Origin: a virus
Strand: one strand, 5' to 3'
Length of the DNA stretch: 27,665 bases
Virus record (IMG/VR): IMGVR_UViG_3300042476_000355
Location: 1-27,665 of that record
Part shown: positions 5,295 through 26,251 of the stretch, in pieces
Layout of the letters: every line of letters begins with the position of its first letter
Numbering within the stretch: the stretch's first letter is position 1
Translations under genes and position numbers: made by a program
Notes under the pieces: model-generated
The model's input: only the letters and a program-made list of their open reading frames with translations
Told to the model about the DNA's origin: nothing
The model's database searches: none

Positions 5295-5379
5295 GCACAG
5301 ATCGATTTGCTACACGCTGGCTAGTCACCAGTTATCGCACCACCATCGACAAGGTTCGCTGGCCGAAGCCAGTTTGCGA

Positions 5380-5408: not shown

Positions 5409-5453
5409 CCGTCCCAGATTGACCTGTACCGGACTGCCGTGTACCGAAAGCGA

Positions 5454-5483
5454 ATGATACACATCCTTCAAACCACCTGTCAA
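5454..5483 (-). promoter_or_regulatory. Leftward sigma70-like promoter, outer copy
   Basis: On the minus strand it reads TTGACA, 18-base spacer, TATCAT, TCGC. It lies 75 bases upstream of the inner copy, giving tandem promoters. A TGTGGTC heptamer (5488-5494) sits 4 bases upstream of its -35 box, where a regulator could act. Confidence 0.85.
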
Positions 5484-5930
5484 GACCTGTGGTCAGGCAA
5501 ATCCAAAATACTTGGCTGGTAGTGCTGGTGATCTTGACCACCTTGGCAACCTTGAAAGGTATCTTACACCTGTCAGACGCTCTAAAACGCTCTAGGAAGC
5601 CTCCAAATTGAGCGGGACGTGTCTAACCATTACCCGACCCTCCCAATGGCTTCCTGAGCGATCCTGTGCGATTTGGTGGGGTTTTGGAAGGTGGGCTTAG
5701 GTACAATTTCTGACCAGTCCGGCAGGAAGGTCGCTTTCCAGTACCCTGGTAGACCACAGTGGGTTACCCCTCCAAGAATTTCTGAAAGATTTTATCCTCA
5801 TGTGGTCTATAGGGTTATGTCAATCCTGACCACATCTTGGTGAGATTTCCTCGAACACCGGTTCTTGACTTCCCGCGAAAGCATGTCATCTTGCGTGTAC
5901 ACTCGATTCTTAGATAGATAGATATACTTA
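5484..5930. other. Non-coding control region, left part
   Basis: No convincing gene is seen. It contains the diverged repeat at 5586-5695 and heptamers at 5752, 5801 and 5828. The last two form an inverted pair, ATGTGGTC then GACCACAT, with 20 bases between. GC content is near that of the genes, unlike the AT-rich block that follows. It separates the leftward operon from the rightward virion genes. Confidence 0.6.
5586..5695 (+). repeat. Diverged non-coding repeat, copy A
   Basis: It shares with 24915-25031 the start AACGCTCTAGGA and, about 62 bases later, GGCTTCCT followed by a GAT-CTGTGCG-TTTGG series and GAGG/GAAGGTG. In copy B the two blocks are 71 bases apart. Both copies lie in non-coding DNA next to regulatory elements. 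The middle of the element is not conserved. Role unknown. Confidence 0.55.
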
Positions 5931-6281
5931 GTACAAGTATTACTATGTAATACTTGTACAATACAAACTTACAAGGACAATATCTAACATTACGAAGTAA
6001 TGTTAGATATTGGACGAGTAAGTTTGACAGGGAGAATTCTTTTTTGTTGTTACTGTAGACCAGTAACCAATTACTCACTTCGTTCGTAATTGGTTACGAT
6101 ATCTATCATTGTATGTAATACAATAGATAGATAAGATAAGTAATGTAGAATCATTTATGTAAGGTAGTACTGTAAAATGGGTATGTATATTACATACATA
6201 CAATACATGATTACATAACTGAAGTACATAGATAAGTAATACAAAGTAGATGTCAATACTCTTTTATGTAGATAGAGTATT
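5931..6281. repeat. Cluster of six AT-rich inverted repeats (candidate origin or switch)
   Basis: Perfect or near-perfect palindromes follow each other: 5931-5959 (13-base arms, TAT loop), 5978-6012 (16-base arms, GAA loop), 6063-6097 (12-base arms, 11-base loop), 6101-6132 (14 pairs with one bulged A), 6181-6197 (7-base arms, TAT loop) and 6255-6281 (7-base arms). The right arm of the first three begins GTAAT. The block is strongly AT-rich and includes (GATA)3 near 5911. It lies between divergent operons. Known roles of such blocks include replication origins and repressor binding; neither is shown here. Confidence 0.75.
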
Positions 6282-6353
6282 CATATCTGTTTTGCATAGG
6301 AAAAATAGTTACTAGGTAATCAAGTGGTCTACTAACACAAAAGAGGATGTTCA
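6282..6353 (+). promoter_or_regulatory. Leader of the virion operon
   Basis: This is an AT-rich leader before the first capsid-morphogenesis gene, with AGAGGA about 7 bases upstream of its ATG. No TTGACA/TATCAT promoter of the family seen elsewhere is found. The late promoter is therefore of another kind, or lies further upstream within the hairpin block. Confidence 0.35.
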
Positions 6354-7316
6354 ATGAAATGTCAGAAACTCATTTCTGAACTTGAACTGAATCTTGAATC
6401 AGTTGAAGTAGATTCTGAAAGTAGAGTAATCAAGAATGTATTACTCTGCGGCAACGAATCGAAAAATGGGTACAAGTACCCGCCAAGCTGTTTCAAGAAC
6501 CAAGACCATGTGGTCAGCCTTTACGAAGGTAAGGCTGTCTGCATTGACCACAGCGATAAACCCATGAATCGCAAGATCAGGGACGTTGCTGGGTTCATCC
6601 AAAATGTTCGCCTTGTTGAAGGCAAGCCGTACGGAGACATCGCAATCGAAAGTGCCATCGATTGTGGAGTTGACTTACTGACCCTTGCTAAAAACAAGCG
6701 TAAGAACATCGGAATGTCTCATGTTGCGATGTGCAAAATGAGCAAGGATCGGCAGACTGTGGAATGCATCGAGCAGGTAGTTACCGTCGATGTGGTCTTT
6801 AGTCCAGCCACAACGAAAACTTTCTTTGAACAGGATCAGGGAATGGAACTTGAACAACTGAAGGCCGAGAACGATGTTCTCAAGGCACGAGTTGCAGTTC
6901 TTGAGTCTGACTTGACAAAAGCAACGGCCTCTGCCGAGACCTTTAAGTCTGAGAACACTAGCCTGCTGGGTGAAGTGACTAATCTCCGGACGGAAGTTGC
7001 TGACATCAAGCCCAGACTTGAGAGCTATGTAAAGGCTGAGCAGAAGCTCGCCGACGAGACTGCCGTCAAGAAGTTGCTGGAAGAAGCAGGACTGGACCTT
7101 AGCGACCCTGTGGTCGTTAGTGAACAGTTCATGGCTATGCTCCTCAACGCTTCACCGGATGCACGTACGCCTTTGATCGAAGATCGCAAGGCTGCTGTGA
7201 GTCGTGGTGGATCGGTAGCCACTGGGACTGTTCGTTCTCCGGAACGGACGGTCAAGACTGAAACAAAGGCAGAGGCATTTGATCCTCTTGCATACCTCGA
7301 CAAGTTTGTCGGCTAA
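6354..7316 (+). CDS. Prohead maturation protease fused to scaffold domain
   Basis: A 320-residue protein. Residues 25-160 look like a herpes-U35/HK97-type prohead protease: a glycine-tyrosine strand (NGYKYP), AVCIDHSDKP with candidate catalytic His66, the VAGFIQNVRLVEGKPYGDI strand pair, and NIGMSHVA with candidate nucleophile Ser122. Residues 164-240 form a heptad-rich coiled coil (LEQLKAENDVLKARVAVLES), as in scaffolds, and the C-terminal region is basic then acidic. In such phages the scaffold shapes the procapsid and the protease cleaves it and the capsid delta domain. The position directly before decoration and major capsid genes fits. An internal ATG at 6843 could yield free scaffold. 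Confidence 0.8.
   Translation: MKCQKLISELELNLESVEVDSESRVIKNVLLCGNESKNGYKYPPSCFKNQDHVVSLYEGKAVCIDHSDKPMNRKIRDVAGFIQNVRLVEGKPYGDIAIESAIDCGVDLLTLAKNKRKNIGMSHVAMCKMSKDRQTVECIEQVVTVDVVFSPATTKTFFEQDQGMELEQLKAENDVLKARVAVLESDLTKATASAETFKSENTSLLGEVTNLRTEVADIKPRLESYVKAEQKLADETAVKKLLEEAGLDLSDPVVVSEQFMAMLLNASPDARTPLIEDRKAAVSRGGSVATGTVRSPERTVKTETKAEAFDPLAYLDKFVG
6843..7316 (+). CDS. Possible nested scaffold protein (internal start)
   Basis: Same frame as the protease gene, starting at codon 164 (MELEQLKAENDVL), exactly at the border between the protease domain and the coiled coil. AGGGA lies directly before the ATG, with GGATC a little further upstream. Lambda C/Nu3 is the precedent for a scaffold made from an internal start in the protease gene. 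The spacing of the ribosome site is short, so this is an inference. Confidence 0.35.
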   Translation: MELEQLKAENDVLKARVAVLESDLTKATASAETFKSENTSLLGEVTNLRTEVADIKPRLESYVKAEQKLADETAVKKLLEEAGLDLSDPVVVSEQFMAMLLNASPDARTPLIEDRKAAVSRGGSVATGTVRSPERTVKTETKAEAFDPLAYLDKFVG

Positions 7317-7328
7317 TAGGAGATTTCA

Positions 7329-7814
7329 ATGGCTCGTGCTATTCATCGCCTCGGTCCTGCGACCCTGAAGGACTACCCGGTAGATTCGTCTACTGTGGTC
7401 ACCAAGGGTGATATGATGTTCCTGGATACCGATGACGTTAAACCAGCGGCATCGTTTACCTGGGACACGAATATCGCAACTACTCAGGCCGCGTTCAACA
7501 ACGTGTTTGTTGGTATCGCTGCTGAAGGTCGTGCAAGCGGTGACGCTGCGACCACAATTGCAATTGATGTGAATCCCGCAGGTGTCTGGGAATACGATCA
7601 GGCGGCTGATGCTGTTCTGACCGGTGGTCTGATTGGACCTGCCAAGGCATCTGGTAACGCACTTGAAAACCAGAAGGTTGTCGAGTGTGCCGCAGCAGCC
7701 GCAATTGGTCGATGCCACGTTGGTGTCGGCTCTAGTGCCACTCGCATTCAGTGTACGTTCGGTTCTGCCCGTCATACGGCTAGTGCCAACGCTAACGCAG
7801 CCTTCGGTAGCTAA
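7329..7814 (+). CDS. Capsid decoration/stabilisation-like protein
   Basis: A 161-residue protein rich in Ala, Gly, Thr and Val. Its order is KGDMMFLD, then FVGIAAEGRASGDAATTIAI and AGVWEYD, resembling the beta-rich DUF2190/decoration-type proteins encoded just before major capsid genes. These sit on the capsid surface and stabilise it. The spacer before it (GCTAATAGGAGATT) is repeated exactly before the next gene, giving both the same ribosome site. Family assignment is by composition and position; it could be another head protein. Confidence 0.55.
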   Translation: MARAIHRLGPATLKDYPVDSSTVVTKGDMMFLDTDDVKPAASFTWDTNIATTQAAFNNVFVGIAAEGRASGDAATTIAIDVNPAGVWEYDQAADAVLTGGLIGPAKASGNALENQKVVECAAAAAIGRCHVGVGSSATRIQCTFGSARHTASANANAAFGS

Positions 7815-7826
7815 TAGGAGATTAAC

Positions 7827-9098
7827 GTGGTACGTCTTAACCAAGAGTTCTTCACTGGACTCACCAAAGATCGTCCGGTCGCTGAAGGCTATAAGAACGT
7901 CTTCATCACTCTGACCGAAGGTCTTAAATCGGGTAAGCTGAAGGCTGAGCACGCTGTGCCTAGCTTCCGTCAGCTTGGTCTGTGGCTCGGTGCCATTGAT
8001 CCTAACGATGAAGCCGGATCGTGGAAGCGGGTCGCAGAAGAAGTGCGATTTGTGGACCACGAAGGTCTTGAGCCTCATCAGGTCAATGCTCGGGTCTTCA
8101 CCGAATCCAACTTGGCTGTTCGGTCGCAGGCATTTGCAACTCTGACATCGACACTCATCGCCTCGAAGATGATCGATGCCTATGAGGCAGTGCCCAGCGT
8201 TGCCGACACGCTGATGACCATGATGCCTAACCAGAAGCTGCGTAATCAGCGGCTGGCAGGGCTGACCCACATTGCTGCTCCTGATGATGAAGTTCTGGAA
8301 GGTCACCCCTACCCAGAAACCGACTTCAGTGAGAAGTACGTGACCACTTCGGAAACGAAGCGTGGTCGCATCCTGCGTCTCACCGAAGAACTGATGATCT
8401 TCGATCAGACCGGTGAGTGCTACCGGCGTGCAGCACTCTTGGGACAGGCTCTCAAGAATGAGCAGGAACGGCGTAAGATTCGCCTGCTGATTGATGCTGA
8501 TGCTGGTTCTAGTGTCTATGTCTATCGTCCAAGTGGTACGGGAGAGACCCTGTACAACACCGATGGTAGCAACCTGAACTACATCGGTTCGGGTGGGGTT
8601 ACGAACTACAACTCGGCATCGCCGCTGGTTGACTGGACTGACCTCGACCTGGTTCGTAAGTACCGAGCAACGCAGGTTACCGATGACCGTATCGACGGCA
8701 CTGCCCGTCCGATTGGCGGCATCAACAGCAACCTGACCCTGCTTGTGCCAGAAGGCAAGCGTGCTACGGCTAACACCATCGTCTATCCTTCTCAGGTTGG
8801 ATACGAGCCGAGTTCTTCGGGCGGTGTTCATTTCCAGTATGCTCAGCCGGTGGCAGGCTTTGTGACCCGTGTGGTCTCCAGCCCGTTCATTGATGAAGTC
8901 AACGGCGATGATTACTACATCGGCGACTTCAACAAGCAGTTCATCTGGACTGAAATTTGGCCTCTGCGAACCGCTGTGCAGGGTCGTGACAGCGAGTCTG
9001 CGTTCAATCAGGACGTGATCTTCTCGGTCAAGGCAAGCTACTACGGTGGTCTGTCGGCAGTCGATTCGGTCTACGTCACCAAGGTTGACGGAGCTTAG
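7827..9098 (+). CDS. Major capsid protein
   Basis: A 423-residue protein with a GTG start 6 bases after AGGAG. It follows the protease/scaffold and the decoration-like gene, and a strong intrinsic terminator stands right behind it, a common arrangement for the most abundant phage protein. Codons are regular and G/C-ending. Segments such as FTESNLAVRSQAFATLTSTLIASKM and RILRLTEELMIFDQTGECYRRAALLG look like long-helix elements of an HK97-fold shell protein. I recognise no exact family motif, so the call rests on length, order and terminator. The antisense strand of this gene also holds a long open frame, which is a codon-bias shadow. Confidence 0.75.
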   Translation: MVRLNQEFFTGLTKDRPVAEGYKNVFITLTEGLKSGKLKAEHAVPSFRQLGLWLGAIDPNDEAGSWKRVAEEVRFVDHEGLEPHQVNARVFTESNLAVRSQAFATLTSTLIASKMIDAYEAVPSVADTLMTMMPNQKLRNQRLAGLTHIAAPDDEVLEGHPYPETDFSEKYVTTSETKRGRILRLTEELMIFDQTGECYRRAALLGQALKNEQERRKIRLLIDADAGSSVYVYRPSGTGETLYNTDGSNLNYIGSGGVTNYNSASPLVDWTDLDLVRKYRATQVTDDRIDGTARPIGGINSNLTLLVPEGKRATANTIVYPSQVGYEPSSSGGVHFQYAQPVAGFVTRVVSSPFIDEVNGDDYYIGDFNKQFIWTEIWPLRTAVQGRDSESAFNQDVIFSVKASYYGGLSAVDSVYVTKVDGA

Positions 9099-9113
9099 TA
9101 GTAACTGAGTTAA

Positions 9114-9148
9114 GGGGTCACGGGCTGTGGCTCGTGGCCCCTATTTTT
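9114..9148 (+). terminator. Intrinsic terminator after the major capsid gene
   Basis: The arms GGGGTCACG (9114-9122) and CGTGGCCCC (9133-9141) form 9 pairs including one G-U, followed by TATTTTTG. It would reduce readthrough from the capsid gene into the tail genes. Confidence 0.85.
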
Positions 9149-9170
9149 GTCTAGTTCTGGGGAGAACTGA

Positions 9171-9701
9171 ATGTCACTGAAGATTGGTAACAAGACCCTT
9201 TCGAAAAAGAACACTCGCACTGTAACCTTCTATCGTGGTGAAGAAGCTATCAGTCTTGTGGTCGGACCACTGCCGCCTAAGTACATCGAGCGTTTGCGTA
9301 ATGATGTGCTGCCTTGGCCTGAACCGCCTCGCAAGGCTGTTGAGACCAAGCCCGGTATCTTCCTTTACGAAGGTGAAGGTAAGAACCGCAAGGTAGTGTT
9401 CCAAGAAGATGACAAAGACCCGGCATACCGGGAAGCACTATCGCTGCTTTCAAAGCGATACACAGCAGCCAAGATTCTGGCCTACACTTCACACGATTCT
9501 TCCTTTAGCGTTGGCCCTGATAAGCCAACACAGAGTTACAAGGAAGACCCTGAAGCATGGCGGCAGTATCTCGATGTGGTCTATAGTGACCTGACAGATG
9601 AGACCACAGGTCTTACTGAAGCCGAGATCACACTGATCTTGGATGAAGGTGAGAAGACTGAACTCGCTGTCGACATTGATGAGGCCAAGCGGACTTTCTA
9701 G
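9171..9701 (+). CDS. Tail assembly chaperone (G-like)
   Basis: A 176-residue protein. It has the features of phage tail assembly chaperones: an N-terminal beta part, a LPPKYIERLRNDV helix, proline-rich PWPEPPRK, and a DPAYREALSLLSKRYTAAKI helix followed by an acidic C-terminal part. These proteins bind the tape measure during tail assembly and are often made in a short and a frameshifted long form. The stop TAG at 9699 overlaps an open -1 frame that runs to 9943. Its place directly after the capsid terminator, rather than before the tape measure, is less usual. GGGGAG lies 7 bases before the ATG. Confidence 0.55.
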   Translation: MSLKIGNKTLSKKNTRTVTFYRGEEAISLVVGPLPPKYIERLRNDVLPWPEPPRKAVETKPGIFLYEGEGKNRKVVFQEDDKDPAYREALSLLSKRYTAAKILAYTSHDSSFSVGPDKPTQSYKEDPEAWRQYLDVVYSDLTDETTGLTEAEITLILDEGEKTELAVDIDEAKRTF

Positions 9702-9943
9702 TTAAGCCATCAGGTGTACGCTCTGGTGAGCAGAGCAGCATCCTGGTGGATGAGAATGGTCAGCACTACGCTCGCTCAGAGGAGTATTACATTCTTCGGA
9801 TTATCGAACGGATGGGATCACCGAAGGAACTCGTCGAGCATTTTGAGCAGTTCTATGATCTCGATGAAAATTGGGTCAGTCACTTGATGGCGTATGAGGT
9901 CATACGTCAGTCAGAAGAAGCAGTCTTTGCAGGAGTACGCTGA
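9683..9943 (+). CDS. -1 frameshift extension of the chaperone (T-like)
   Basis: The -1 frame is open from 9683 to its stop at 9941-9943. The only candidate start for a separate gene is a GTG at 9746 without a ribosome site, and a 44-base gap would be left. If Phe-TTC at 9696 slips back to TTT at 9695 with the TAG in the A site, translation continues as LVKPSGVRSGEQSSILVDEN and so on for about 82 residues. The extension has an acidic helical sequence (YILRIIERMGSPKELVEHF), as in lambda GT-type products. If there is no frameshift, this is a 65-residue gene from 9746. Confidence 0.5.
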   Translation, partial: GQADFLVKPSGVRSGEQSSILVDENGQHYARSEEYYILRIIERMGSPKELVEHFEQFYDLDENWVSHLMAYEVIRQSEEAVFAGVR

Positions 9944-10272
9944 TGCCTATAGTCAACTCGCTCAGTCAGATGGGTGATGGTACTCCGATTACGGAGGAGC
10001 AGATTCACTCGTTCTTGAACAAGCTCACACTAAAGTTGTTCAACCTGCTTCACGGCAACGGAGTAGAATCAGCAGTAGATTACGAAGAGTTCGGACCTAC
10101 CGGGCACAGAGTGTACTTCTCTAACTCTATCAGAGAGATTCGAGAACTACATGCCTACTTCAGCAACCTACTGGCTAATCCAGAACTGCGTGGTGATTTC
10201 GGCTTCTACTTGACAGAAGCACAGCCAGTATCTCTTGTGGAGTGGGTGAATGATAACACGCGGCTTCAATAG
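9943..10272 (+). CDS. Head-tail connector-like protein
   Basis: A 109-residue protein whose ATG overlaps the previous stop (TGATG). It has a helix (EQIHSFLNKLTLKLFNLLHG), then a two-strand GPTGHRVYFSNS segment and a helix EIRELHAYFSNLL. This helix-hairpin-helix order resembles lambda gpW-type joining proteins, which prepare the portal for tail attachment. Position among connectors supports it. Sequence evidence alone is weak. Confidence 0.4.
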   Translation: MPIVNSLSQMGDGTPITEEQIHSFLNKLTLKLFNLLHGNGVESAVDYEEFGPTGHRVYFSNSIREIRELHAYFSNLLANPELRGDFGFYLTEAQPVSLVEWVNDNTRLQ

Positions 10273-10579
10273 GGCTATGGCTTTTGTATACAACGGTCAA
10301 GATGTAGAGGTGCGACTCCAGGGTGCTCAAACAATAGATTTCACCACCGCAGGAGCGTCGATCACCAGAACATATACCGGTGTTACAATCAAGTCACTGG
10401 TTGGACCAGAGGTAAAGGCTAAAGAAGGACACACACGAGAATTCGCCTTTCTAACTGCCGAATACCCAGAAAATCCACCACTGACGACCACAAGGGTTGT
10501 ATTTGACAACCTGATCTATGAGATTTTTGACTACACGACAGACGGTGTGGTCACTAAGGTTTACACTAGGAGACCCTGA
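10250..10579 (+). CDS. Head closure (stopper)-like protein
   Basis: A 109-residue beta-rich protein starting MITRGFNRAMAFVYNGQDVE and ending TKVYTRRP. Its order, strands around VEVRLQGAQT, a central variable loop, and a final VVFDNLIYEIFDYT strand pair ending in a basic tail, is typical of small stopper proteins (gpFII/HK97 gp7 group) that seal the portal. It overlaps the previous gene by 23 bases. Assignment is by fold pattern and position. Confidence 0.45.
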   Translation: MITRGFNRAMAFVYNGQDVEVRLQGAQTIDFTTAGASITRTYTGVTIKSLVGPEVKAKEGHTREFAFLTAEYPENPPLTTTRVVFDNLIYEIFDYTTDGVVTKVYTRRP

Positions 10580-10875
10580 TGCAGACTAACAAACTGTGGG
10601 GAGCATTGATCCTGACATTGGCTGTTACAATAGCAGTCATTGGATTGGTAGATGCTGGTGTATTCATAGGCTGGGGACTCCAGTCGACCTTATCCCAGCA
10701 CGTTGCTGATGCAATGCACAGCAATGGTGGGGTATACATCTTCTTCATTGCATCTGCCTTTGTTGGTGGCATGCTGGCAACCCATTTTACCGGGTTTGGC
10801 ATGGAGCACTCAGATGTGGTCGCATTGAAGAGGCGTATTGCTGAATTAGAAGCTCAACTCGACAAGGAGAAATAA
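10579..10875 (+). CDS. Two-pass membrane protein, holin candidate
   Basis: A 98-residue protein with hydrophobic segments at about residues 7-33 and 50-72, a short loop between, and a charged coiled-coil C-terminus (VVALKRRIAELEAQLDKEK). Two segments plus a charged tail is a class II holin shape, but there is no lysin next to it, and it lies among structural genes. It shares a TGATG overlap upstream and an ATAATG junction downstream. Another membrane role is possible. Confidence 0.5.
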   Translation: MQTNKLWGALILTLAVTIAVIGLVDAGVFIGWGLQSTLSQHVADAMHSNGGVYIFFIASAFVGGMLATHFTGFGMEHSDVVALKRRIAELEAQLDKEK

Positions 10876-11717
10876 TGCCTTTTGTTAATCTGTCGGGTAA
10901 GCAAGATGCGGATGCAACATTGGCAGAATTGGCTGCGTGGGACTGGTCGAGCGGGGTGGAGGTGCCCACCTTCACTGCCGACGACACGCTTTCCATCCTG
11001 CGAGTCGGAACCAGTGCAAACAACTTGGTCCAACTGAACGGCTCAGGGGCGTTGCCTGCCGTTTCGGGAGCTAACCTGACAGACCTTCCGGGAGGAGCCA
11101 GTAGCCTAGATGGGCTATCCGATGTGACCATCACGGCAGCGGCTTCTGGTGAGTATCTGCGGTACAACGGAACGGCGTGGGTCGATGCAGTAATCGCAGC
11201 CGGCGACCTGCCATCAGCCATTGACCGCACGAAGATCGGCAACGGAATCGATGTGGTCGAGACGATTTGTTACAAGCAATCGTCGAGCGTCGATTACAAC
11301 GGAACCAGTGCGTCATACACAATCGAACCAGCCGACTTGCAGATCACAATCCCTTCGACGGGCCTGTGGCAGATCAACGCCATCATCAATGTGCAGAAGG
11401 CGTCGACGGGTGCCCAAACCGGTGTACGATTGGCGATGGGCACAGCGGTCATCAGCGGCACAACAGGCTGGCCAGCGGGCGGGCACTTCTCCGCTGCGGT
11501 GACCGGAAACTGCACGATCACAACCGGCTCGCCGACGATTGTCTCCGGAGCCAGCCGTTCTCCAGGGTCGAATGACATTTGCTTTGCGATCACCTGGAAT
11601 TTGAATGTCACGACAGCAGGGACGATTAAGTTCCAGATGATGGACGCAACCGCCACAGCGAACATTATCAAACTACTCAACACGTCCACTATTGTTGGAC
11701 GGAGGTTAGCAGCATGA
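10875..11717 (+). CDS. Tail fibre or receptor-binding-like protein
   Basis: A 280-residue protein rich in Thr, Ser, Ala and Gly. Residues 54-74 carry a GSGALPAVSGANLTDLPGG motif, a common shaft/adaptor element of phage fibres, followed by SLDGLSDVTITAAASGEYLRYNGTAWVDA. The C-terminal half is beta-rich, like a jelly-roll tip (LQITIPSTGLWQINAIIN). Two 60-base stretches counted here have 33 and 40 G+C, against 28 in a stretch of the next gene but one, and only one heptamer occurs. This fits a recently acquired host-range module. Target unknown. Confidence 0.6.
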   Translation: MPFVNLSGKQDADATLAELAAWDWSSGVEVPTFTADDTLSILRVGTSANNLVQLNGSGALPAVSGANLTDLPGGASSLDGLSDVTITAAASGEYLRYNGTAWVDAVIAAGDLPSAIDRTKIGNGIDVVETICYKQSSSVDYNGTSASYTIEPADLQITIPSTGLWQINAIINVQKASTGAQTGVRLAMGTAVISGTTGWPAGGHFSAAVTGNCTITTGSPTIVSGASRSPGSNDICFAITWNLNVTTAGTIKFQMMDATATANIIKLLNTSTIVGRRLAA

Positions 11718-12181
11718 TTGAACAGATTCGTAATCTGGCTAGACCTGCGTTTCTCCCTATGACAGAGCAGTTCGATGTATCGGCATGGGTCTCTTGTGAT
11801 GTTGATGGTGACGGTACAGTTGATAAGGTTCGATTGAATCTAGAAGCATCACCACCGCATCTGGTATTTGAGTGTAGTGCTCAGGCAATTATTGACGGAA
11901 CCGGTATCACTGTCCGAGATGCGGCAGAAAACGAACTGACAGCAATCCTAACTGGACTGCAAGCTAATCCACCAAAGCCGAAAGAATTGACTCCTCTAGA
12001 AGCTCTGGAGCGGTTCACTGAGCCGGAGCAGGATGTCATTGAAGCTCATGCCCCTCGGCTGGCTCGCAGGCTGTTCTCGGCAATCGCACCGATTGCATGG
12101 GAGACCTTTGCCGCGTCAGTGGCGGAACTACAAACAGGTGGGCTGCTCACACCCGAACAGGCGGAAAGGGTACTGTCCTAA
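11714..12181 (+). CDS. Hypothetical virion-region protein with a calcium-loop motif
   Basis: A 155-residue protein. Residues 29-37 (DVDGDGTVD) match the D-x-D-x-D-G loop of EF-hand or dockerin-like calcium sites. The C-terminal half is helical (EALERFTEPEQDVIEAHAP). ATGA overlap with the fibre-like gene before it suggests coupled synthesis, perhaps as partner or chaperone of that protein. No family is recognised. Confidence 0.55.
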   Translation: MIEQIRNLARPAFLPMTEQFDVSAWVSCDVDGDGTVDKVRLNLEASPPHLVFECSAQAIIDGTGITVRDAAENELTAILTGLQANPPKPKELTPLEALERFTEPEQDVIEAHAPRLARRLFSAIAPIAWETFAASVAELQTGGLLTPEQAERVLS

Positions 12182-13398
12182 TGGCTACTCAAACAATTCT
12201 ATTTCCATTCCTCACAGGCTCAACCCCTGTGGTCAGACTGTTCGCGGATGACGGTTCAGATACTATCCTTGATACCCCTTCTGCAACAGAAGCAACTAAT
12301 CGAGACGGTGTTTTCAGTTTCACACAAACTGACAGAGCAGCAGGCACATACCTGATTACTGTAACAGGTGGGGACAACAATGCTGTATATGTGGTCACTT
12401 TAACACTGACCACAGCTACGTTCTGGGCTTATGAGCGGCCTACAATTGCTGAGCAGCAGGCAGGTCTTTTAACAACCAGCACGTTCAGTTCTACAGTTGA
12501 GACTATTCCAGAGTCAGTTGCAGACTACGTGTGGGATGATCTTGTTTCTAGCCACATTGCAGCAGGGTCTACTGGGGAGGCTCTTTACAGAACGCTTGCA
12601 ATCAAGACCAAGACGGACAACCTTCCGTCTGATCCTGCTGACCAGTCTGCTGTTGAGGCAGCAATCACTGCGGCTACTTCTGGACTTGCTACAGCGTCTT
12701 CAATTGTATCGCTGACCACAAAGGTCGATACGCTCGATGACTATGTTGATACCGAAGTGGCAGCCATTAAGGCAAAGACAGACAACCTGCCTGCTGATCC
12801 AGCCGATGCTTCTGACATTGCAGCATCCTTTGTCACAGTCAACTCGAAACTTGATGCGATTGATGACTACGTTGATGCTGAGGTTGCTGCCATTAAGGTA
12901 GTAACCGACAGACTGTCTGGCATGTTGGTTCAGGATGGTTTGGTCTACCAGTACACCACAAACGCACTGGAGAATGCTCCAAGCGGCGGTGGAGGTGGTG
13001 GGACTACTACGATTGCTGTCTACCCGCTCAATGCCACGATGCCTGCTAGGGTCTATGACCTGAACCTGACGTTCTACAAGAATGAAGACGGTACGGTTGT
13101 TGGGCCTATTGCAGTCACGTCTCGCAATGCTGATGTGTTTGAACCTGTTGACCTGTCAGGTCGTACCCTCTCTGTTCGCTTTGTGGACTATGAGGGCACA
13201 GAACTCCTGACAGTTGCTGACTCGGACATCACGGTAAGCGGTGCTGATGACAATCAAATCAGTTTCCCTGTAACTACTGACCTTACAGGCTCTGTCACTG
13301 AACTGCCTCAAGATCAGTGGCACATCTGGACACTCCGCGATCTCACGAACGGCGATAACGTCCTGATTTCGGGTCGTGCTCGTGTTCTTCTTAGTTAA
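12181..13398 (+). CDS. Virion protein with KTDNLP repeats and BppU-like end domain
   Basis: A 405-residue protein. I chose the ATG at 12181 over an in-frame ATG at 12097, because GGAAAGGG precedes it and its ATG overlaps the preceding stop (TAATG). The N-terminal 80 residues are an Ig-like beta domain. The middle has repeated units (TDNLPSDPADQS, KAKTDNLPADPADAS, with DDYVDTEVAAIK and DDYVDAEVAAIK), probably a trimeric helical stalk. A glycine linker follows (residues about 274-281). The C-terminal 120 residues have the order of the BppU N-terminal-type fold of baseplates. The protein is probably displayed on the tail or baseplate. Confidence 0.6.
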   Translation: MATQTILFPFLTGSTPVVRLFADDGSDTILDTPSATEATNRDGVFSFTQTDRAAGTYLITVTGGDNNAVYVVTLTLTTATFWAYERPTIAEQQAGLLTTSTFSSTVETIPESVADYVWDDLVSSHIAAGSTGEALYRTLAIKTKTDNLPSDPADQSAVEAAITAATSGLATASSIVSLTTKVDTLDDYVDTEVAAIKAKTDNLPADPADASDIAASFVTVNSKLDAIDDYVDAEVAAIKVVTDRLSGMLVQDGLVYQYTTNALENAPSGGGGGGTTTIAVYPLNATMPARVYDLNLTFYKNEDGTVVGPIAVTSRNADVFEPVDLSGRTLSVRFVDYEGTELLTVADSDITVSGADDNQISFPVTTDLTGSVTELPQDQWHIWTLRDLTNGDNVLISGRARVLLS

Positions 13399-13406
13399 GG
13401 TGAACA

Positions 13407-13760
13407 ATGGCTACAATTCGAATTCAAGGTGGTTGGTCCTCTAGTTCTGCTGCTAACCCAGGCATTACAAACATTGACCACACGTGGCTGACTTCTTACG
13501 GTTCTGATGACAGGTTTCACTCCATCGGGACCACAGAGGAGTCAATCACGTTTACGGACATTTCCGTGAATGGTTGGGTTAAACTCGAAAACACGGACGC
13601 AACTAATTACGTGCAGGTCGGCTTCTCAACAGGCGTTTACGGTATCAGGTTGAAGGCTGGCTTTTCTGCGGTCTTCTTTCTTGAACCGGGAGCAACCATC
13701 TACTTGAAAGCCAATACCGCCGCATGTCGAGTTAGGGCAAGTCATCTAGGAGCAGTGTGA
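13407..13760 (+). CDS. Hypothetical beta-rich virion-region protein
   Basis: A 117-residue protein starting MATIRIQGGWSSSSAANPGI. It contains GWVKLENTDATNYVQVGFST and a C-terminal ATIYLKANTAACRVRAS, a pattern seen in small phage proteins next to fibre or baseplate genes. AAGG precedes the ATG. It shares the promoter-less run of the virion operon. Exact role unknown. Confidence 0.55.
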   Translation: MATIRIQGGWSSSSAANPGITNIDHTWLTSYGSDDRFHSIGTTEESITFTDISVNGWVKLENTDATNYVQVGFSTGVYGIRLKAGFSAVFFLEPGATIYLKANTAACRVRASHLGAV

Positions 13761-14323
13761 TGACTGTCAAATACAGCAAAGAAGAGATCAACTCGGACTT
13801 GATGGAGTTCCTTTGGGACGCTGCCGGAGAACTGACAGATACCTTCTTTAGCGTAGTTGACAGGGAGGCTCCTGTCGAAGACGGACACCTGCATGAGTCA
13901 TTTGCAACGGCACTCGATGGGCTTATTCGATTTAAGCTCCTGCATGTTGCGGATACACAGGCTTCTATGTCGGTCAGAGGTTCTAACGACCCCGAGGCCA
14001 AACGGGGTGGAACAGGTGTGGCATCTAAATTCAAAACAGGTGTCACAGTCTTGGTCAGGAATGATCTTGGTTTTGTTGAGCGTTTGAATTCTGGTGGCAC
14101 TCAGGAAGCAGACGTTACAGGGAATCAGGGTCGAAAAACAGAAGGGGCAGCGACCGTAGGTCAGCTATACGCTCCACGTTCCGAAGGCAGAGATGGAGTT
14201 CTGATGTGGATGGATGGCGGGACCAGACGCTACGCCAGAACACGGACCATCCAGCCTCACGGATTTTTTGATGCAGCCGAACAGGCTGTGGTCACTCTTG
14301 CAAAAGAAATGGGGTTTGCATAA
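13760..14323 (+). CDS. Tail completion protein (HK97 gp10-like)
   Basis: A 187-residue protein. I chose ATG at 13760, 6 bases after AGGAG and overlapping the preceding stop (TGATG), over a GTG one codon earlier. APVEDGHLHESFATA matches the 'APVDTG.L..S' start of HK97 gp10-type proteins, LGFVERLNSGGT matches their central 'vE.GT' strand, and PHGFFDAAEQAVVTLAKEM matches the C-terminal 'P.f...A' helix. These proteins cap the tail and join it to the head. The usual insertion of about 60 residues around MWMDGGT is present. Being next to the major tail protein supports the call. Confidence 0.7.
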   Translation: MTVKYSKEEINSDLMEFLWDAAGELTDTFFSVVDREAPVEDGHLHESFATALDGLIRFKLLHVADTQASMSVRGSNDPEAKRGGTGVASKFKTGVTVLVRNDLGFVERLNSGGTQEADVTGNQGRKTEGAATVGQLYAPRSEGRDGVLMWMDGGTRRYARTRTIQPHGFFDAAEQAVVTLAKEMGFA

Positions 14324-14820
14324 TGCCTACTGTCACTAACGTAGCCCGTAACATTCAAAACGGGTCTCTTGTGATTAAGGACGGATCGGCTACACCGAAG
14401 TCTTGTACTGTAGCTTGCTCCGGTAATCTGAAGTGGTCTGAATCACGCACAATGGTTGAAGTCCTTTGTCGTGGTTCGGTTGACCACAGACGAGAAGGTA
14501 ACACTGTCGGTTTTACGGTTAGCTTCGATGCCGCTTGGTATCAGCTTATCTCTAAGACCGCCAACTCTGGCGATGCTGTGTCTGTCTACGAAATTCTGTC
14601 TAATCCGGGGTCGTACTTCACGTCGACTGAGGATGGGGCTTACTGTCTTGATATCGAATTCACTGTTGCCGATCCAAACACCACGAACGGCAACGATGAA
14701 AAGATTACCTTCCCGGATGTGTTCATTGAGAAGGTGGACTGCTCGGAAGGCGAAGACAAGAACATGATCTCGTTCTCTGGACGCGGTAAGGTTCGTGCCC
14801 CAACCATCACTCGTGTGTAG
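14323..14820 (+). CDS. Major tail tube protein candidate
   Basis: A 165-residue beta-rich protein starting MPTVTNVARNIQNGSLVIKD. It lies between the tail-completion gene and the tape measure, and an intrinsic terminator follows it, a common arrangement for this abundant protein. VDHRREGNTVGFTVSFDAAW and the C-terminal MISFSGRGKV fit the 'polar beta sandwich' of tail tube subunits. The sequence itself is not of a family I can name. Its start overlaps the previous stop (TAATG). Confidence 0.65.
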   Translation: MPTVTNVARNIQNGSLVIKDGSATPKSCTVACSGNLKWSESRTMVEVLCRGSVDHRREGNTVGFTVSFDAAWYQLISKTANSGDAVSVYEILSNPGSYFTSTEDGAYCLDIEFTVADPNTTNGNDEKITFPDVFIEKVDCSEGEDKNMISFSGRGKVRAPTITRV

Positions 14821-14838
14821 TATACTTCGGTTCTCCCG

Positions 14839-14876
14839 CCCGGTATGTCCAGTCGGGCATACCGGGTTTTCTTTTT
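14839..14876 (+). terminator. Intrinsic terminator after the major tail gene
   Basis: Arms CCCGGTATG (14839-14847) and CATACCGGG (14858-14866) form 9 pairs, followed by TTTTCTTTTT. The loop side begins TGTCCAG, which recurs in the terminator at 27325. Confidence 0.9.
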
Positions 14877-14892
14877 AGCTGGAGAGGCTTAG

Positions 14893-17361
14893 ATGAGTAA
14901 GAAGTTTGAGTATGAACTGACTCTACGGCTGGAGAAGGCCGAGAAGGCGATTGCCTCCCTTGCTTCAAAGATTGAGAAGGACTTAGGGGGAGCGGCAAAT
15001 AAGGGGTTGAAAGACCTCACCGATGCTGATAACAAGTATACCAAAGAACGCATTGACAATATCCGGAGACGTTCGCAAGAAGATTCTGAGGCAAGGAAGA
15101 TTCGATTTGATGACCACAAGGGTGTGCTGTCACGGATCGAGCAGGCTGAGATTATCAATGCTCAGAAGTTAGCTGAGATCGAAGCAAGAGTGACTACGCT
15201 AACTAAGAAAGAACTTGAGGATCAACTTAGAGAGTACCAGAAACTCGCAAGGGCACGCATTCAGTATGCAACTGAGGCTGGGTATAAAGCGGAAGCAATA
15301 ACTAGCCAATCAATGGCTAACGGTGCCAGAGGTGTTTCTGCAATCTTCCAGGTTCAGCAGGGTATCGAAGATGCCATGTACGCTGGTCTGCGTGGTGCTG
15401 GTAACAACATCGCCTTCTTGCTGACCAAGGTAACCAGTAGTTGGGTTGCTATCGGTGGTCTGATTGGTGTGGCTACTCTGCAACTTGCTGACCACCTTGG
15501 TGTGTTTGAGAAACTCAACGAAGCCTACGATGGTGCTTTGTGGAAGACTAAAGAACAGGTCAGGTATGAAGAACATCTGCTTCGGTTGAAGAAAGAGCAA
15601 CTGGACAGAGAAGACCAGAAAAAAGAGGATGAGGCTAAGTTTTCTCCAGCAAGTAAGACACTAGCCGGGCTGCAAGATGAGATCAAGGAAAAGAAAGAGA
15701 TACTTACTGGTCAAAGAGAGCGACAGTTCGCCTATGAGCGTACTATCGAACTTGTAACTGAGTTGAAAAATAGGCAGAAAGAGTTACGCGGTGTCGAGAA
15801 GGCGATGGAAGAAGACCTTCTGCCAATCACCGTGAACGAGAAGAAGGAACTTGAGCGAAGGAAAGCCGAGCTTGAGAATCAGATCAGTAAGTTGAAGGGT
15901 CGCATTGAAGATCAGAAGCCCGGCTTTACTGCCGACGAGCTGGTTAAGAACGCTAAAGCGTTTGAGGTTGTTCAAGAAAAGGCAGAGAACTTCGGCAGTG
16001 CTGTCGCAAAGACCACAGACGAAGTGAAGAACTTGTTAGAGCAACTCAAACCTGTTGAGGAGGCCAGTTTCCGCAAGGAAGCAATGGAATGGGTTAAGCA
16101 AGAAACCCTTGCCATGCTCGACCGAGAAATCGAACAGTCCAAGGATGTGGTCAAGGCTCGTGAAGAAGAACTTAGGACAGTCCAGCAGACTCTTGCTACT
16201 GCTGAGCAACTACTGAAGACTGAGCAGAATCGTGAAGATGCTATCCGTAAGGCAGCATCGGCACGGGAAGATGAGTTCGCTAAGCAGAAACTGGGTCTCC
16301 AGAATACCATTCTGGATATGGAGGCTTCTGAGACTGCTAAGGCTGAAAAGGCCAAAGCAGACTCTGCAAAAGAGGCTGTTGCTAGTCAGATGGATAGCCA
16401 TCGTAAGTGGGCAGAGAAGCAGGCACAGATTGACAAGTTCAACAATAAGGGCAACTCAGCCAATATCGATGCTGCTAAGCAGAACTGGCTTAGTAACATG
16501 CAGGCACAAGCCGATGCTGAGATTGCTCGCATTGAAGCGAATGAAAAGCGTGCCATTGAATCTGCCAAGAAGATTGCTGAAGAGGCCAAGAAGGCCAACC
16601 TCGATGCTATGGAAGTTGTGCAGAAGAAGAAGGTCGAAGACCTGCTTGAAGAAGCGGAAGGTATCCAGTTCGGCGGTGGTGATTGGGGTGATCCTGAAAA
16701 AGCAAAAGAGATGTACGACGACGCACAAGAGGCGTTAGATAAGGCCCTGAAGACTTTGAAAGAAATGGCTGACGCCAAGGTTGGTAATCTCAATCAGAAG
16801 GATTCTGTGCAGCAAGGTAAGCAAGCTCTACGCGAGTGGGAAGAACTTACCGAGAGGATCAAAGAAGTCAATGACCTTAAATTGGAATATAACAAACAGG
16901 CTCAGGAAGAGTCCCATGATCGTGTTCAGGATATAGCTGCTGATATGGTTCAAGAGATGAATCGTCTGGATGATGTTAAAGAGAAACACGACGAACTTCT
17001 CAAAAAGAAGGAACTCATCAGCAAGACTCCAATGACAAGTGCTGATGATCTTCAGGCTATTGAAAAGTATCGTGCTGCTTTGCAGGCGATTCTTGATATG
17101 CGAATCCAGATTGCGAATCAGCCGTTGCAGGCTCCAATGCAGGTTCCTGGTTTGGGTGCTCCGGGTGCTCCACAACCTCCTGCTGGTGCTGGCGGTCAAG
17201 GTGCTCCAGGTGCTCCTTCCAACCCAGCACCTACCCCACCACCGAATTCAGGCATGTCGTTGACATTCAACATGAACAACACGACACCGAATGCTGTGAT
17301 GGCGGCTGCTGCTGCCTACCAGCAGAATCAGCGGGCAGTGGCAATGCTCAGCGGTAATTGA
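14893..17361 (+). CDS. Tape measure protein
   Basis: An 822-residue protein, the longest in the window, in the usual place after the major tail protein and before distal-tail and hub genes. It is mainly coiled coil: heptads run from residue 1 to about 130 and again from 235 to 740, rich in Glu, Lys and Ala. A hydrophobic segment at about 175-205 (VAIGGLIGVATLQLADHLG) is the membrane-active part often found in tape measures. The C-terminus has a collagen-like GAPGAP stretch and ends in a short beta region (MSLTFNMNN). In siphoviruses length sets tail length; at about 0.15 nm per residue this would be near 120 nm. GGAGAGG precedes the ATG. Confidence 0.85.
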   Translation: MSKKFEYELTLRLEKAEKAIASLASKIEKDLGGAANKGLKDLTDADNKYTKERIDNIRRRSQEDSEARKIRFDDHKGVLSRIEQAEIINAQKLAEIEARVTTLTKKELEDQLREYQKLARARIQYATEAGYKAEAITSQSMANGARGVSAIFQVQQGIEDAMYAGLRGAGNNIAFLLTKVTSSWVAIGGLIGVATLQLADHLGVFEKLNEAYDGALWKTKEQVRYEEHLLRLKKEQLDREDQKKEDEAKFSPASKTLAGLQDEIKEKKEILTGQRERQFAYERTIELVTELKNRQKELRGVEKAMEEDLLPITVNEKKELERRKAELENQISKLKGRIEDQKPGFTADELVKNAKAFEVVQEKAENFGSAVAKTTDEVKNLLEQLKPVEEASFRKEAMEWVKQETLAMLDREIEQSKDVVKAREEELRTVQQTLATAEQLLKTEQNREDAIRKAASAREDEFAKQKLGLQNTILDMEASETAKAEKAKADSAKEAVASQMDSHRKWAEKQAQIDKFNNKGNSANIDAAKQNWLSNMQAQADAEIARIEANEKRAIESAKKIAEEAKKANLDAMEVVQKKKVEDLLEEAEGIQFGGGDWGDPEKAKEMYDDAQEALDKALKTLKEMADAKVGNLNQKDSVQQGKQALREWEELTERIKEVNDLKLEYNKQAQEESHDRVQDIAADMVQEMNRLDDVKEKHDELLKKKELISKTPMTSADDLQAIEKYRAALQAILDMRIQIANQPLQAPMQVPGLGAPGAPQPPAGAGGQGAPGAPSNPAPTPPPNSGMSLTFNMNNTTPNAVMAAAAAYQQNQRAVAMLSGN

Positions 17362-17386
17362 CAGCTACCCTGTGGTCCAGTATCAT
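17358..17386 (+). promoter_or_regulatory. Rightward sigma70-like promoter before the distal tail genes
   Basis: TTGACA (17358-17363), a 17-base spacer, TATCAT (17381-17386), then TCGT. The spacer contains a complete TGTGGTC heptamer (17371-17377). The -35 box overlaps the stop region of the tape measure gene. Start point is near 17393, directly at the first base pairs of the following terminator-like hairpin. Confidence 0.85.
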
Positions 17387-17390
17387 TCGT

Positions 17391-17426
17391 GCCAGAGTAG
17401 GCTTCGGCTTACTCTGGCCTTTTTCT
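17391..17426 (+). terminator. Intrinsic terminator directly at the promoter start point
   Basis: GCCAGAGTAGGC and its complement at 17407-17418 form 12 pairs (one G-U) around a TTCG tetraloop, followed by CTTTTTCTT. It would end transcripts from the tape measure gene. RNA started at the adjacent promoter would begin with this hairpin, giving either a tiny RNA or a 5' stabilising cap. Confidence 0.85.
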
Positions 17427-17436
17427 TGGAGTTGAG

Positions 17437-17967
17437 ATGGCTTTTTCATTCGCACCTGCTCTCTGGCGTTCTGGTACGTCGTATACGCCTCCCAGTGGCA
17501 CCACACGGACCACAACCGTCAACAGTGGTCAATTGTTCTTCCTGCCCCAGCCGATCACAGCATTCCCTCTCCTAGACGATTTCAGGGGTAGGGTTGAGGA
17601 GATGCCAGCCAAGGTTGGTGGTAATGCTGTCAGAGGCAACAGACATGCTCATAAGCAGATCAGTATCACCGGCTTGTATGGTAAGCATTTGGTGTCAACT
17701 GAGACTACTCTGATTACTGAACTTCAGATGCTCGACTTGCATCGAGACCTGCTTGAGTTTCTCAATCCAACTGAGCCTACACAAGAGCATGAACTATTCA
17801 TGTACTACGATTCAGGTACAAATACCTATCGCAAGTACAAGCAATGCTTCAAGGCAAGTTTGCAGACTGACATTGGTGACTCTGCCTATGCAAACAAAAT
17901 CTTCACCATGAGCCTGCAAATGATTATCCTTGATCCAGTCATCTACACTACAGGACCGGGGGCTTAA
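17437..17967 (+). CDS. Distal tail protein-like
   Basis: A 176-residue protein following the tape measure. MAFSFAPALWRSG, a central QISITGLYG strand, LLEFLNPTEPTQEHELFMYY and a C-terminal LQMIILDPVIY fit the pattern of Dit-like proteins (about 100-residue core, ending in strands that contact the tube). These form the hub platform at the tail tip. TTGGAG lies 6 bases upstream. Position is the main evidence. Confidence 0.55.
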   Translation: MAFSFAPALWRSGTSYTPPSGTTRTTTVNSGQLFFLPQPITAFPLLDDFRGRVEEMPAKVGGNAVRGNRHAHKQISITGLYGKHLVSTETTLITELQMLDLHRDLLEFLNPTEPTQEHELFMYYDSGTNTYRKYKQCFKASLQTDIGDSAYANKIFTMSLQMIILDPVIYTTGPGA

Positions 17968-23237: not shown

Positions 23238-24275
23238 GTGATCTTTCACCGCCTCTTGCCTGACGGCTTCAAACGAGATGCAGACGGTTTCGTGGGTCTC
23301 TGCTCAGGGATTCACGATCAACCCCTGGTGATCCTGCTTGGTGGTCCTTCAGCAACCTGGGACAGTGTTGAGAAGATTGTGTTTACCAAGAAATTGGCAA
23401 ACTTGTCGGTCAACTGTGGTCACAGACCAGTAGGTATCAACCCACACCTGTTCCCCACTTATTGGACAGGCTACGACAATCCAGTCAGGTTCGACCAGTC
23501 GGTGTTCCTTGATCCTCGGACTATCAAGTTCTGCCCATCAACACGGGCAAATGAACTACTTCGTGACGGGACCACGTTACTATCTGAATGTCCTTCTGTG
23601 GTCTTCTTTGATCCACAGAAGCGTGCTAGTAACGGTGAACTGTTCACGCTCGGTCCTGTGATTGATACTCGTGATTCAATGCTTCAGGCAATCGACATTG
23701 CTGTGAAGCTGGGCTATCGAGACATCTACCTTCACGGTGCTGACCTGTACACTCCGCTCTCTGACGAGCAGGTTGAGTTCATAAATCGTAAACTCACTGA
23801 GACAGGTGCTAACCTACCATTCGAGTTAGCCTGCATGGTCAATTCCAGTATGGAAGCCCTGTCTAGCATCGCTCATGCTCTGACCTGCAAAGATACACCA
23901 CCTGCTGAGATGTCCGATGAGCAGAAGGCTGCTTGTGAAGACTGTCTTGACGGTTTGATTGCTTCTCTGTCCTGTCTGGGTAGTCCAGATATGTACAGCA
24001 TGGGCAATGCAAACACCAAACTGAAGGACAACCTGCGGTCTGACTACCACTACCGGGTTACATCAGGTCGTCTGATCGGAGCGAGGCGGAACTTGGCGAA
24101 CCTGGGTGTACGGGTGTCACTGCTCAGAGGGACCACAGGTTGTAAGAGTCGCCTCAACGGATACTTCCCTGTGGTCAGGCTTGACGAGATCGCAGACACT
24201 GAGTATCATTCGTCCTGTGAACCTGACTACCAAGCAGTTGGGATGTACCGGCGAGTCGATGGAGGGATTGCCTGA
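23238..24275 (+). CDS. DUF115/MptE-like Rossmann protein
   Basis: A 345-residue protein from a GTG with AAGGA 6 bases upstream. Near the N-terminus, VILLGGPSATWDSVEK followed by NLSVNCGHRPVGINPHLFPTYWTGYDNP is the glycine-rich loop and Rossmann core of the DUF115/MptE-like and sialyltransferase-like group. Later GYRDIYLHGADL is a second core strand. A CEDC pair and a basic C-terminal region follow. Relatives are glycan- or pterin-modifying enzymes, so modification of a glycan or nucleotide is possible, perhaps with the phosphoribosyltransferase-HAD protein. Family call moderate; function inferred. Confidence 0.45.
   Translation: MIFHRLLPDGFKRDADGFVGLCSGIHDQPLVILLGGPSATWDSVEKIVFTKKLANLSVNCGHRPVGINPHLFPTYWTGYDNPVRFDQSVFLDPRTIKFCPSTRANELLRDGTTLLSECPSVVFFDPQKRASNGELFTLGPVIDTRDSMLQAIDIAVKLGYRDIYLHGADLYTPLSDEQVEFINRKLTETGANLPFELACMVNSSMEALSSIAHALTCKDTPPAEMSDEQKAACEDCLDGLIASLSCLGSPDMYSMGNANTKLKDNLRSDYHYRVTSGRLIGARRNLANLGVRVSLLRGTTGCKSRLNGYFPVVRLDEIADTEYHSSCEPDYQAVGMYRRVDGGIA
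24181..24209 (+). promoter_or_regulatory. Possible intragenic promoter
   Basis: TTGACG, 17-base spacer, TATCAT, then TCGT, differing from the strong promoters by one base in the -35 box. It lies in the DUF115-like gene, 66 bases before the next gene, and a heptamer (24170-24176) stands just upstream. Could be coincidence of codons. Confidence 0.35.
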
Positions 24276-24505
24276 TGGATAACACAACACCGCAGGTTGG
24301 TCAGCACTGGCGACTGAGACGCAAGGACTCACACGGATTTGTCACTTATGATGATGTTGTGGTCGCGGCTGTCTCTGAAGATGGTCAATATGTCCGGACA
24401 AGACTGGGCGGGTTTCCTTGGTTGGATTTTCCGATCAGTGACTTCCAGCGTGCTGGGCAGTACATCAGTCCGAACTGGTTCTGGCGTCTCTTCGGCTTCA
24501 CTTGA
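24275..24505 (+). CDS. Small hypothetical protein
   Basis: A 76-residue protein starting MDNTTPQVGQHWRLRRKDSH, with a beta-rich body (GFVTYDDVVVAAVSEDGQYV) and an aromatic C-terminus (NWFWRLFGFT). It may be an SH3-like small barrel. The ATG overlaps the previous stop (TGATG). Its stop codon overlaps the -35 box of the following promoter. Confidence 0.6.
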   Translation: MDNTTPQVGQHWRLRRKDSHGFVTYDDVVVAAVSEDGQYVRTRLGGFPWLDFPISDFQRAGQYISPNWFWRLFGFT

Positions 24506-24531
24506 CAACCACCAGCCAGTCTTTGTATCAT
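24502..24531 (+). promoter_or_regulatory. Rightward promoter for the tRNA region
   Basis: TTGACA (24502-24507), 18-base spacer, TATCAT (24526-24531), then TCGC. Start point near 24538. It drives a structured leader, a tRNA-like element and tRNA-Arg, and perhaps the small genes from 25036. Confidence 0.85.
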
Positions 24532-24541
24532 TCGCAAACGC

Positions 24542-24675
24542 ACTCCCCACACGACCGGTAACGAGCAGTAACATGCTTAGGACCGAGTGCATCTTTGGGG
24601 AGTCAAATCCAGCAGTTGGGAAGCCTACCTATTCTGACGAGAATAGGTAATCGCGATAGGCGGAAATCTGCTGGG
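24542..24675 (+). ncRNA. Structured RNA of unknown class
   Basis: Two folding units follow the promoter. The first is closed by ACTCCCCA (24542-24549) and TGGGGAGT (24596-24603). The second is a three-tier stem: CCAGCAG/CTGCTGG (24609-24615 with 24668-24674), GCCTA/TAGGC (24623-24627 with 24657-24661), and CCTATTCT/AGAATAGG (24628-24635 with 24640-24647) around a GACG loop, with internal loops TTGGGAA, GGAAAT and TAATCGCGA. The nesting is too regular for chance. No ribosomal site or long frame lies here. I do not recognise the class. Confidence 0.5.
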
Positions 24676-24746
24676 TGTTCTCTAGCCGGATACTGCGAGG
24701 GTGGACTAATCATCTTCGTGGTGGGTTCGACTCCCGCCAGAGAACA
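24676..24746 (+). tRNA. tRNA-like element, degenerate or without D stem
   Basis: TGTTCTCT at the start pairs with AGAGAACA at the end (8 pairs), and the T arm is canonical (GTGGG-TTCGACT-CCCGC at 24721-24737). Only about 44 bases precede the T arm, against 48 in ordinary tRNAs. The D stem cannot be formed beyond two pairs. Bases 24695-24717 make a 9-pair hairpin (three G-U) with an ACTAA loop. I cannot assign an anticodon. It is either a decayed tRNA or a tRNA mimic. Confidence 0.45.
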
Positions 24747-24835
24747 TGCGTATCTACCACGTGTAGATGTCGTAACGAATGCGTCAGTAATGGCGTGTTC
24801 AGCACGGATGTGTCAGGGATGACATATCCGTTCAC
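24747..24835 (+). other. Spacer between tRNA-like element and tRNA-Arg
   Basis: About 90 bases with no gene. A hairpin TCTACCACGTGTAGA (24752-24766) with a 6-base arm is seen. It may be a processing site between the two RNAs. Confidence 0.35.
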
Positions 24836-24909
24836 ATCCTTGTAGCTCATCTGGACAGAGCAACGACCTTCTAAGTCGTTGGCAGTAGGTTCGACTCCTA
24901 CCAAGGATG
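24836..24909 (+). tRNA. tRNA-Arg (anticodon TCT)
   Basis: A full cloverleaf: acceptor ATCCTTG with CAAGGAT, D arm GCTC/GAGC, anticodon arm ACGAC-CTTCTAA-GTCGT with anticodon TCT at 24870-24872, variable loop TGGCA, T arm GTAGG-TTCGACT-CCTAC, discriminator G at 24909. No CCA is encoded. It reads AGA codons, which are used in the phage genes. Confidence 0.95.
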
Positions 24910-24914
24910 CTCAC

Positions 24915-25861: not shown

Positions 25862-26251
25862 ATGGGACTCTTTCGTGTGCTTGTCTGCGGTGGTCGTGAC
25901 TTCTCTGACTTTGAGTATCTCTGCACAGTAATGGACAGGTACAATCCTGAAGGGTTTCCTGTCTCTGTGGAGATTTGTCAGGGAGGTGCGAGGGGTGCTG
26001 ATAACCTAGCTAAACTCTGGGCAAGTCTTAGAGATGTTCGATGCATCGAATACCCTGCCGACTGGGTAACACATGGTAAGGCTGCTGGACATATCCGTAA
26101 TCAGCAGATGTTGGATGACTTTGGACCGCAGATTGTAGTAGCGTTTCCTGGTGGTCGTGGAACAGATGATATGATTCGCCGTGCTGAAAAGGCCGGTGTA
26201 CCCGTACTAAAAGTGAAAGAGAAGAATGACTCCGCTAGCAAAGCTGAATGA
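25862..26251 (+). CDS. SLOG-family (DUF2493/YspA-like) nucleotide-sensing protein
   Basis: A 129-residue protein; I chose ATG at 25862, after GGAGG, over an upstream in-frame ATG at 25823. It shows the SLOG pattern: RVLVCGGRDFSD at the start, QGGARGADNLAKLWA, then EYPADWVTHGKAAGHIRNQQ and VVAFPGGRGTDDMIRRAEKA. These Rossmann proteins bind nucleotide-derived ligands or modify nucleotides, and phages carry them often. In some systems SLOG proteins sense defence signals. No partner effector is adjacent, so a role in nucleotide handling is likely but unproved. Confidence 0.85.
   Translation: MGLFRVLVCGGRDFSDFEYLCTVMDRYNPEGFPVSVEICQGGARGADNLAKLWASLRDVRCIEYPADWVTHGKAAGHIRNQQMLDDFGPQIVVAFPGGRGTDDMIRRAEKAGVPVLKVKEKNDSASKAE

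Follow-up and report, generated by a model that had tools for sequence, protein, structure and literature searches.

Short cassettes in which a strong sigma-70-type promoter appears to overlap an intrinsic terminator recur in a little-known group of phages. The promoter-hairpin layout is the same at three loci, and we give about an even chance to the reading that each is a gene-boundary cassette.

Results

The stretch of DNA analysed here (the window) is the phage contig IMGVR_UViG_3300042476_000355, 27,665 bases long. Among the genes that run leftward are those for a DNA repair exonuclease, a deoxynucleotide kinase and a methylase. The genes running rightward include one for a capsid-like protein, tail genes, a tape-measure-like ORF, a tRNA region, an exonuclease and, after it, Sak4. 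When viral contigs and species genomes were scanned by protein and by pattern, only four close relatives emerged, the IMG/VR contigs 3300032092_000144 (G001), 3300010354_000110 (G002), 3300034103_000704 (G003) and 3300005664_000049 (G004); G003 is identical to positions 1-14933 of the window and does not extend to either window cassette. In the annotated phage records, the capsid-like, tail and portal proteins had no match, and the exonuclease and Sak4 had distant matches only, Tunturi phages among them; a scan of a stretch of Tunturi_2 found no promoter-hairpin pair. An AT-rich intergenic stretch of the window (about 5960-6260) separates divergent gene blocks and is a possible candidate for an origin or control region; positions 5964-6026 match their own reverse complement at 82%.

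The first cassette, on the plus strand, consists of a -35 box, TTGACA (17358-17363), a 17 bp spacer (17364-17380) and a -10 box, TATCAT (17381-17386), followed by TCG as at other promoters of the same class. A hairpin of 12 pairs, one of them G.U, with a UUCG loop closed by a C-G pair (17391-17418), begins four bases past the -10 box, and a single C separates it from a TTTTT tract (17420-17424). The upstream gene is an 822-aa tape-measure-like ORF (14893-17361) whose TGA stop sits within the -35 box; downstream, a Shine-Dalgarno-like TTGGAG (17426-17431) precedes the ATG at 17437 of a gene (17437-17967) whose 176-aa product, a tail-region protein, matches no family. A preliminary description of the window had placed a promoter at 17358-17386 and a 12-pair UUCG hairpin with a T tract from 17391 on, which our analysis matches base for base. 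That description called the terminator perfect, which is slightly generous given the G.U pair and the base before the tract. Sigma-70 promoters usually start 7-8 nt past the -10 box, and we therefore assumed a start at 17393-17394, inside the 5' arm of the hairpin; RNA from this start would reach the T tract after about 32-33 nt, in agreement with the roughly 35 bases proposed earlier. In G001, both boxes and the entire stem are unchanged, the 5' third of the spacer has diverged while its 3' part is identical, and one base of the loop differs (UUAG), which rules out UUCG as an essential element. The C-terminus of the tape-measure protein, encoded just 5' of the cassette, has diverged in G001 with indels.

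At the second site, where the preliminary description had reported two hairpins before a T tract, we found that arrangement at 27272-27362 (plus strand). The promoter is TTGACA-18-TATCAT (27272-27301; -35 box at 27272-27277, -10 box at 27296-27301), and the TGA that ends the exonuclease ORF (26226-27275) lies within its -35 box. Hairpin 1 (27309-27324; 6 pairs) begins at the expected transcription start. Hairpin 2 (27325-27357) has 8+4 pairs with one bulged T and an 8-nt loop, AGTGGTGA, and is followed directly by TTTTT (27358-27362). The ATG at 27386 opens a Sak4-like recombinase gene that runs off the window (27386-27665). G001 and G002 both retain this cassette, and hairpin 2 is the same in them as in the window, bulge and 8-nt loop included; the tract in G002 is TTTT. 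An Rfam scan of the window gave no match except a tRNA.

The third cassette lies behind the portal gene, at 10085 in G002 and 19920 in G004, with the layout TTGACA-18-TAYCAT, two bases, a hairpin of 14-15 pairs and TTTTCTC. The small gene on its 3' side differs between the two contigs and the cassette is preserved. In G002, an HNH endonuclease ORF (9311-10078) stands between portal and cassette, and is missing there in G004; the C-terminal end of this ORF resembles the C-terminal tail of the portal protein. Two positions of the stem differ between G002 and G004 (A or G opposite U) and both remain paired. Covariation is minimal at all loci, because each is represented by two or three sequences only.

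Across the three loci, the boxes are common and the hairpin sequence is not. The 17358 layout is present in the window and G001, the 27272 layout in the window, G001 and G002, and the portal-downstream layout in G002 and G004; every cassette is retained in the related contigs that cover its locus. Each separates co-directional genes (tape measure and tail, exonuclease and Sak4, portal and small gene), with its -35 box on the upstream stop codon or at most about 10 nt after it, and the hairpins have the form of intrinsic terminators, a GC-rich hairpin followed directly by a T tract. All cassette promoters are identified as matches to the sigma-70-type consensus. The 27.7 kb of the window hold five exact TTGACA-17/18-TATCAT sites, each followed by TCG, and none when the pattern is read backwards, compared with 0.4 near-consensus sites per shuffled window. 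We also scanned 600 dinucleotide shuffles of the window for promoters with no more than one mismatch that are followed, no further than 12 nt away, by a T-tailed hairpin of 8 or more pairs, and found such a promoter-hairpin pair once in total, which rules out chance as the source of the pairing. By this strict definition the window has one pair, the 27272 cassette being additional to it because the scan does not count its bulged stem.

Promoters of the same class recur at the same positions in G001 with divergent spacers. One of them, TTGACA-18-TATCATTCG (24502-24531, plus strand), precedes the tRNA region, and its -35 box overlaps the TGA of ORF 24275-24505. In G002, this promoter is immediately followed by an additional tRNA-like insert of about 80 nt; the tRNA region (24502-24910) has more tRNA-like stems in G001 and in the window, where ARAGORN does not call them. 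On the minus strand, the RNA expected from a promoter at 5380-5408 begins with a 5-pair UUCG hairpin (5372-5359) that has no T tract, is identical in G001 and is possibly a stabiliser of the 5' end. Another minus-strand promoter (5454-5483) has no adjacent simple terminator hairpin. Conversely, strong 13-pair terminators without promoters follow the capsid-like gene (9113-9142) and a tail-like gene (14838-14867), and so the phage seems to terminate between late genes.

The complete heptamer that the preliminary description saw in the 17358 spacer is indeed there, as CTGTGGTC (core TGTGGTC) at 17370-17377, and is conserved in G001. There are 36 copies of CTGTGGTC in the window on both strands, with about 0.8 expected, for example at 17370, 24169 and 27142. 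It ranks first among 8-mers in the window, G001 and G002 and joint first in G004, and it is not among the top 8-mers of Tunturi_2 or RB49. The other promoter spacers lack it, such that one of the three cassette loci (17358) has it. Given this genome-wide distribution and presence in a single cassette spacer, we ruled it out as a promoter-specific binding site for the group; CTGTGGTC is a genome-wide feature of these phages that needs a separate explanation.

We folded RNAs cut at each possible start, with starts assumed from the distance to the -10 box. RNA from the 17358 promoter would lose 2-3 outer pairs of the hairpin, weakening it from -21 to -15 or -12 kcal/mol, and would have 3-4 nt between stem and U-tract, as compared to 1 in the full hairpin. 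For the portal-locus promoter, 4-5 pairs would be lost, and the gap to the U-tract would be 4-5 nt rather than 0. With these assumed starts, the full stems at both loci form only in RNA arriving from upstream. By contrast, the terminator at 27272 lies wholly within the RNA of its own promoter.

Discussion

From the observed sequences, their recurrence and their conservation, we infer promoter activity, start position, termination and escape as follows. RNA polymerase arriving from the upstream gene (tape measure, exonuclease or portal) would transcribe the full hairpin and T tract and be released, and the cassette promoter would start a fresh transcript for the next gene. We read the hairpin as a terminator of the upstream gene because the full stem would be present only in upstream RNA; at 17358 and the portal locus, the outer pairs lie upstream of the expected start and would therefore be useful only to that RNA. 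Transcripts begun at these two promoters would lack the outer 2-5 pairs and carry a 5'-terminal stem 3-5 nt from the U-tract. The shortened stem and wider gap would weaken termination, letting much of this RNA through. The pattern of divergence between the window and G001, which falls in the 5' third of the spacer and in the loop and spares the boxes and stem, argues for a boundary cassette, as does the persistence of the portal-locus cassette despite a change of neighbouring gene. On the other side, the starts are assumed, and a start at G17391 would include the full hairpin; moreover, termination might persist with a shortened stem and a gap of 3-5 nt to the U-tract. We rejected the idea that the cassettes are recombination hot spots: mosaic boundaries between the window and G001 are so frequent that nearness to a cassette proves nothing.

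A stronger version, which we offer tentatively and think less probable than the boundary reading itself, is that the hairpin is an origin-selective terminator, stopping polymerases from upstream and passing those started locally, and would thus act as a one-way insulator that needs no protein factor. This selectivity would follow from the position of the start within the 5' arm of the terminator. The idea covers two of the three loci. At 27272, hairpin 2 is wholly past the expected start, so that escape by this route is inapplicable and the promoter's own RNA should terminate too; there, partial termination or regulation seems as likely.

Alternatively, the cassettes could be attenuators or antitermination switches, with their own transcripts stopped by default and released by a phage or host factor or by partial termination. 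This is the main rival of the boundary reading, although for the three loci together we regard it as rather unlikely; at 27272, where the terminator lies entirely inside the RNA of its own promoter, it is a serious rival. The hairpin reaches beyond that RNA at the two other loci, 17358 and portal, which argues against a switch, and no motif is common to the three spacers, the heptamer being in one only. Neither Phage_antitermQ nor Antiterm (PF06530 and PF03589) was found in the five contigs, which is weak evidence against antitermination since all are fragments and the search covered these lambda-type Q and Antiterm families only. The 25 top families listed for the 87 proteins of G002 include DNA polymerase, DnaB, integrase, resolvase and many HNH nucleases, and no antiterminator. 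Thus, of the antitermination control suggested in the preliminary description, the position of the 27272 terminator speaks in favour, and the lack of a Q or Antiterm match and of a shared spacer element speaks against.

Promoter-proximal terminators of this kind are nonetheless documented. The leader of lambda PR' is 194 nt long, and the terminators described here are much closer to their promoters. AlpA and GafZ load between the -35 and -10 boxes and pass downstream terminators (PMC7969949; PMC11150451). Our cassettes resemble the lambda Q, AlpA and GafZ systems in that the promoter has an intrinsic terminator behind it and that one spacer, at 17358, holds a repeated motif; they differ in the two respects just noted, the Q/Antiterm match and the common spacer element. 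The E. coli greA leader, from which GraL derives, likewise has a promoter followed by a close intrinsic terminator, with only about 19 nt ahead of its hairpin; some two thirds of the transcripts end there, and the remainder read on into the gene (PMC6829880). In that leader, however, the start precedes the entire hairpin and the ATG lies at +150, whereas at two of our loci the start would fall within or at the stem, with the gene about 45 nt on. Lastly, the two adjacent hairpins near the promoter start, at 27272 only, loosely recall the antiterminator put of HK022, which is about 70 nt long and has two long bulged stems (PMC9378689), but the second hairpin at 27272 is itself a T-tailed terminator.

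A protective stem-loop at the 5' end of the mRNA, with the T tract secondary, was also among the earlier suggestions, and we consider it improbable as a general explanation. At 17358, 27272, the portal locus and 5408(-), only 0-1 unpaired bases would separate the 5' end of the expected RNA from its first stem. Three of these four have a T tract right behind the full stem, which protection from decay would not need, and at two loci the outer pairs are absent from the promoter's RNA. The UUCG hairpin of 5 bp at 5408(-), conserved in G001, lacks any T tract and lends a 5'-stabilising role some support; that role is countered by the T tracts elsewhere.

The hairpins could also be plain terminators of the upstream genes beside non-functional promoter look-alikes, given that the promoters are consensus matches only. 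This seems very unlikely in view of the excess of exact sites over shuffled sequence, the TCG common to all five, and their recurrence at matching positions in G001, where the spacers have diverged. Least credible is a small hairpin RNA acting in trans (about 33 nt, or about 55 nt at 27272), which the geometry would yield if termination were efficient and for which the leader fragment GraL, with its trans effects, is a precedent (PMC6829880): we found no specific support for the earlier proposal of small hairpin RNAs, the 17391 RNA being nearly all stem with no free seed and a 4-base loop that differs in G001, and the hairpin sequence not being common to the three loci. The three options of the preliminary description did not include a hairpin that serves RNA from the upstream gene.

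The nearest known kind is the PeSL (promoter-early stem-loop) cassette of T4-type phages, which Arbiol in 2010 and Comeau in 2014 are said to have described (both cited in PMC4503421 and PMC5931544). Like PeSL cassettes, ours are short, intergenic and repeated, pair a strong sigma-70-like promoter with a terminator stem-loop between co-directional genes, and, at the portal locus, adjoin exchanged genes. When we scanned 84 kb of RB49, the terminator preceded the promoter in six of seven strong pairs, 12-32 nt apart, whereas here the promoter only ever comes first and overlaps the terminator. PeSL copies would further be expected to be alike enough for recombination and gene shuffling; the loci described here have the boxes in common but no one sequence, and gene exchange is seen only beside the portal-locus cassette. 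The boundary function would be of the PeSL type, but the order is reversed and overlapping; we therefore rejected filing the cassettes as PeSL.

If the geometry works as proposed, neighbouring genes would be separated in about 75 bp without a regulator, by a single sequence that both terminates the upstream message and starts the following one. This would explain why these phages place a strong terminator immediately after a strong promoter.
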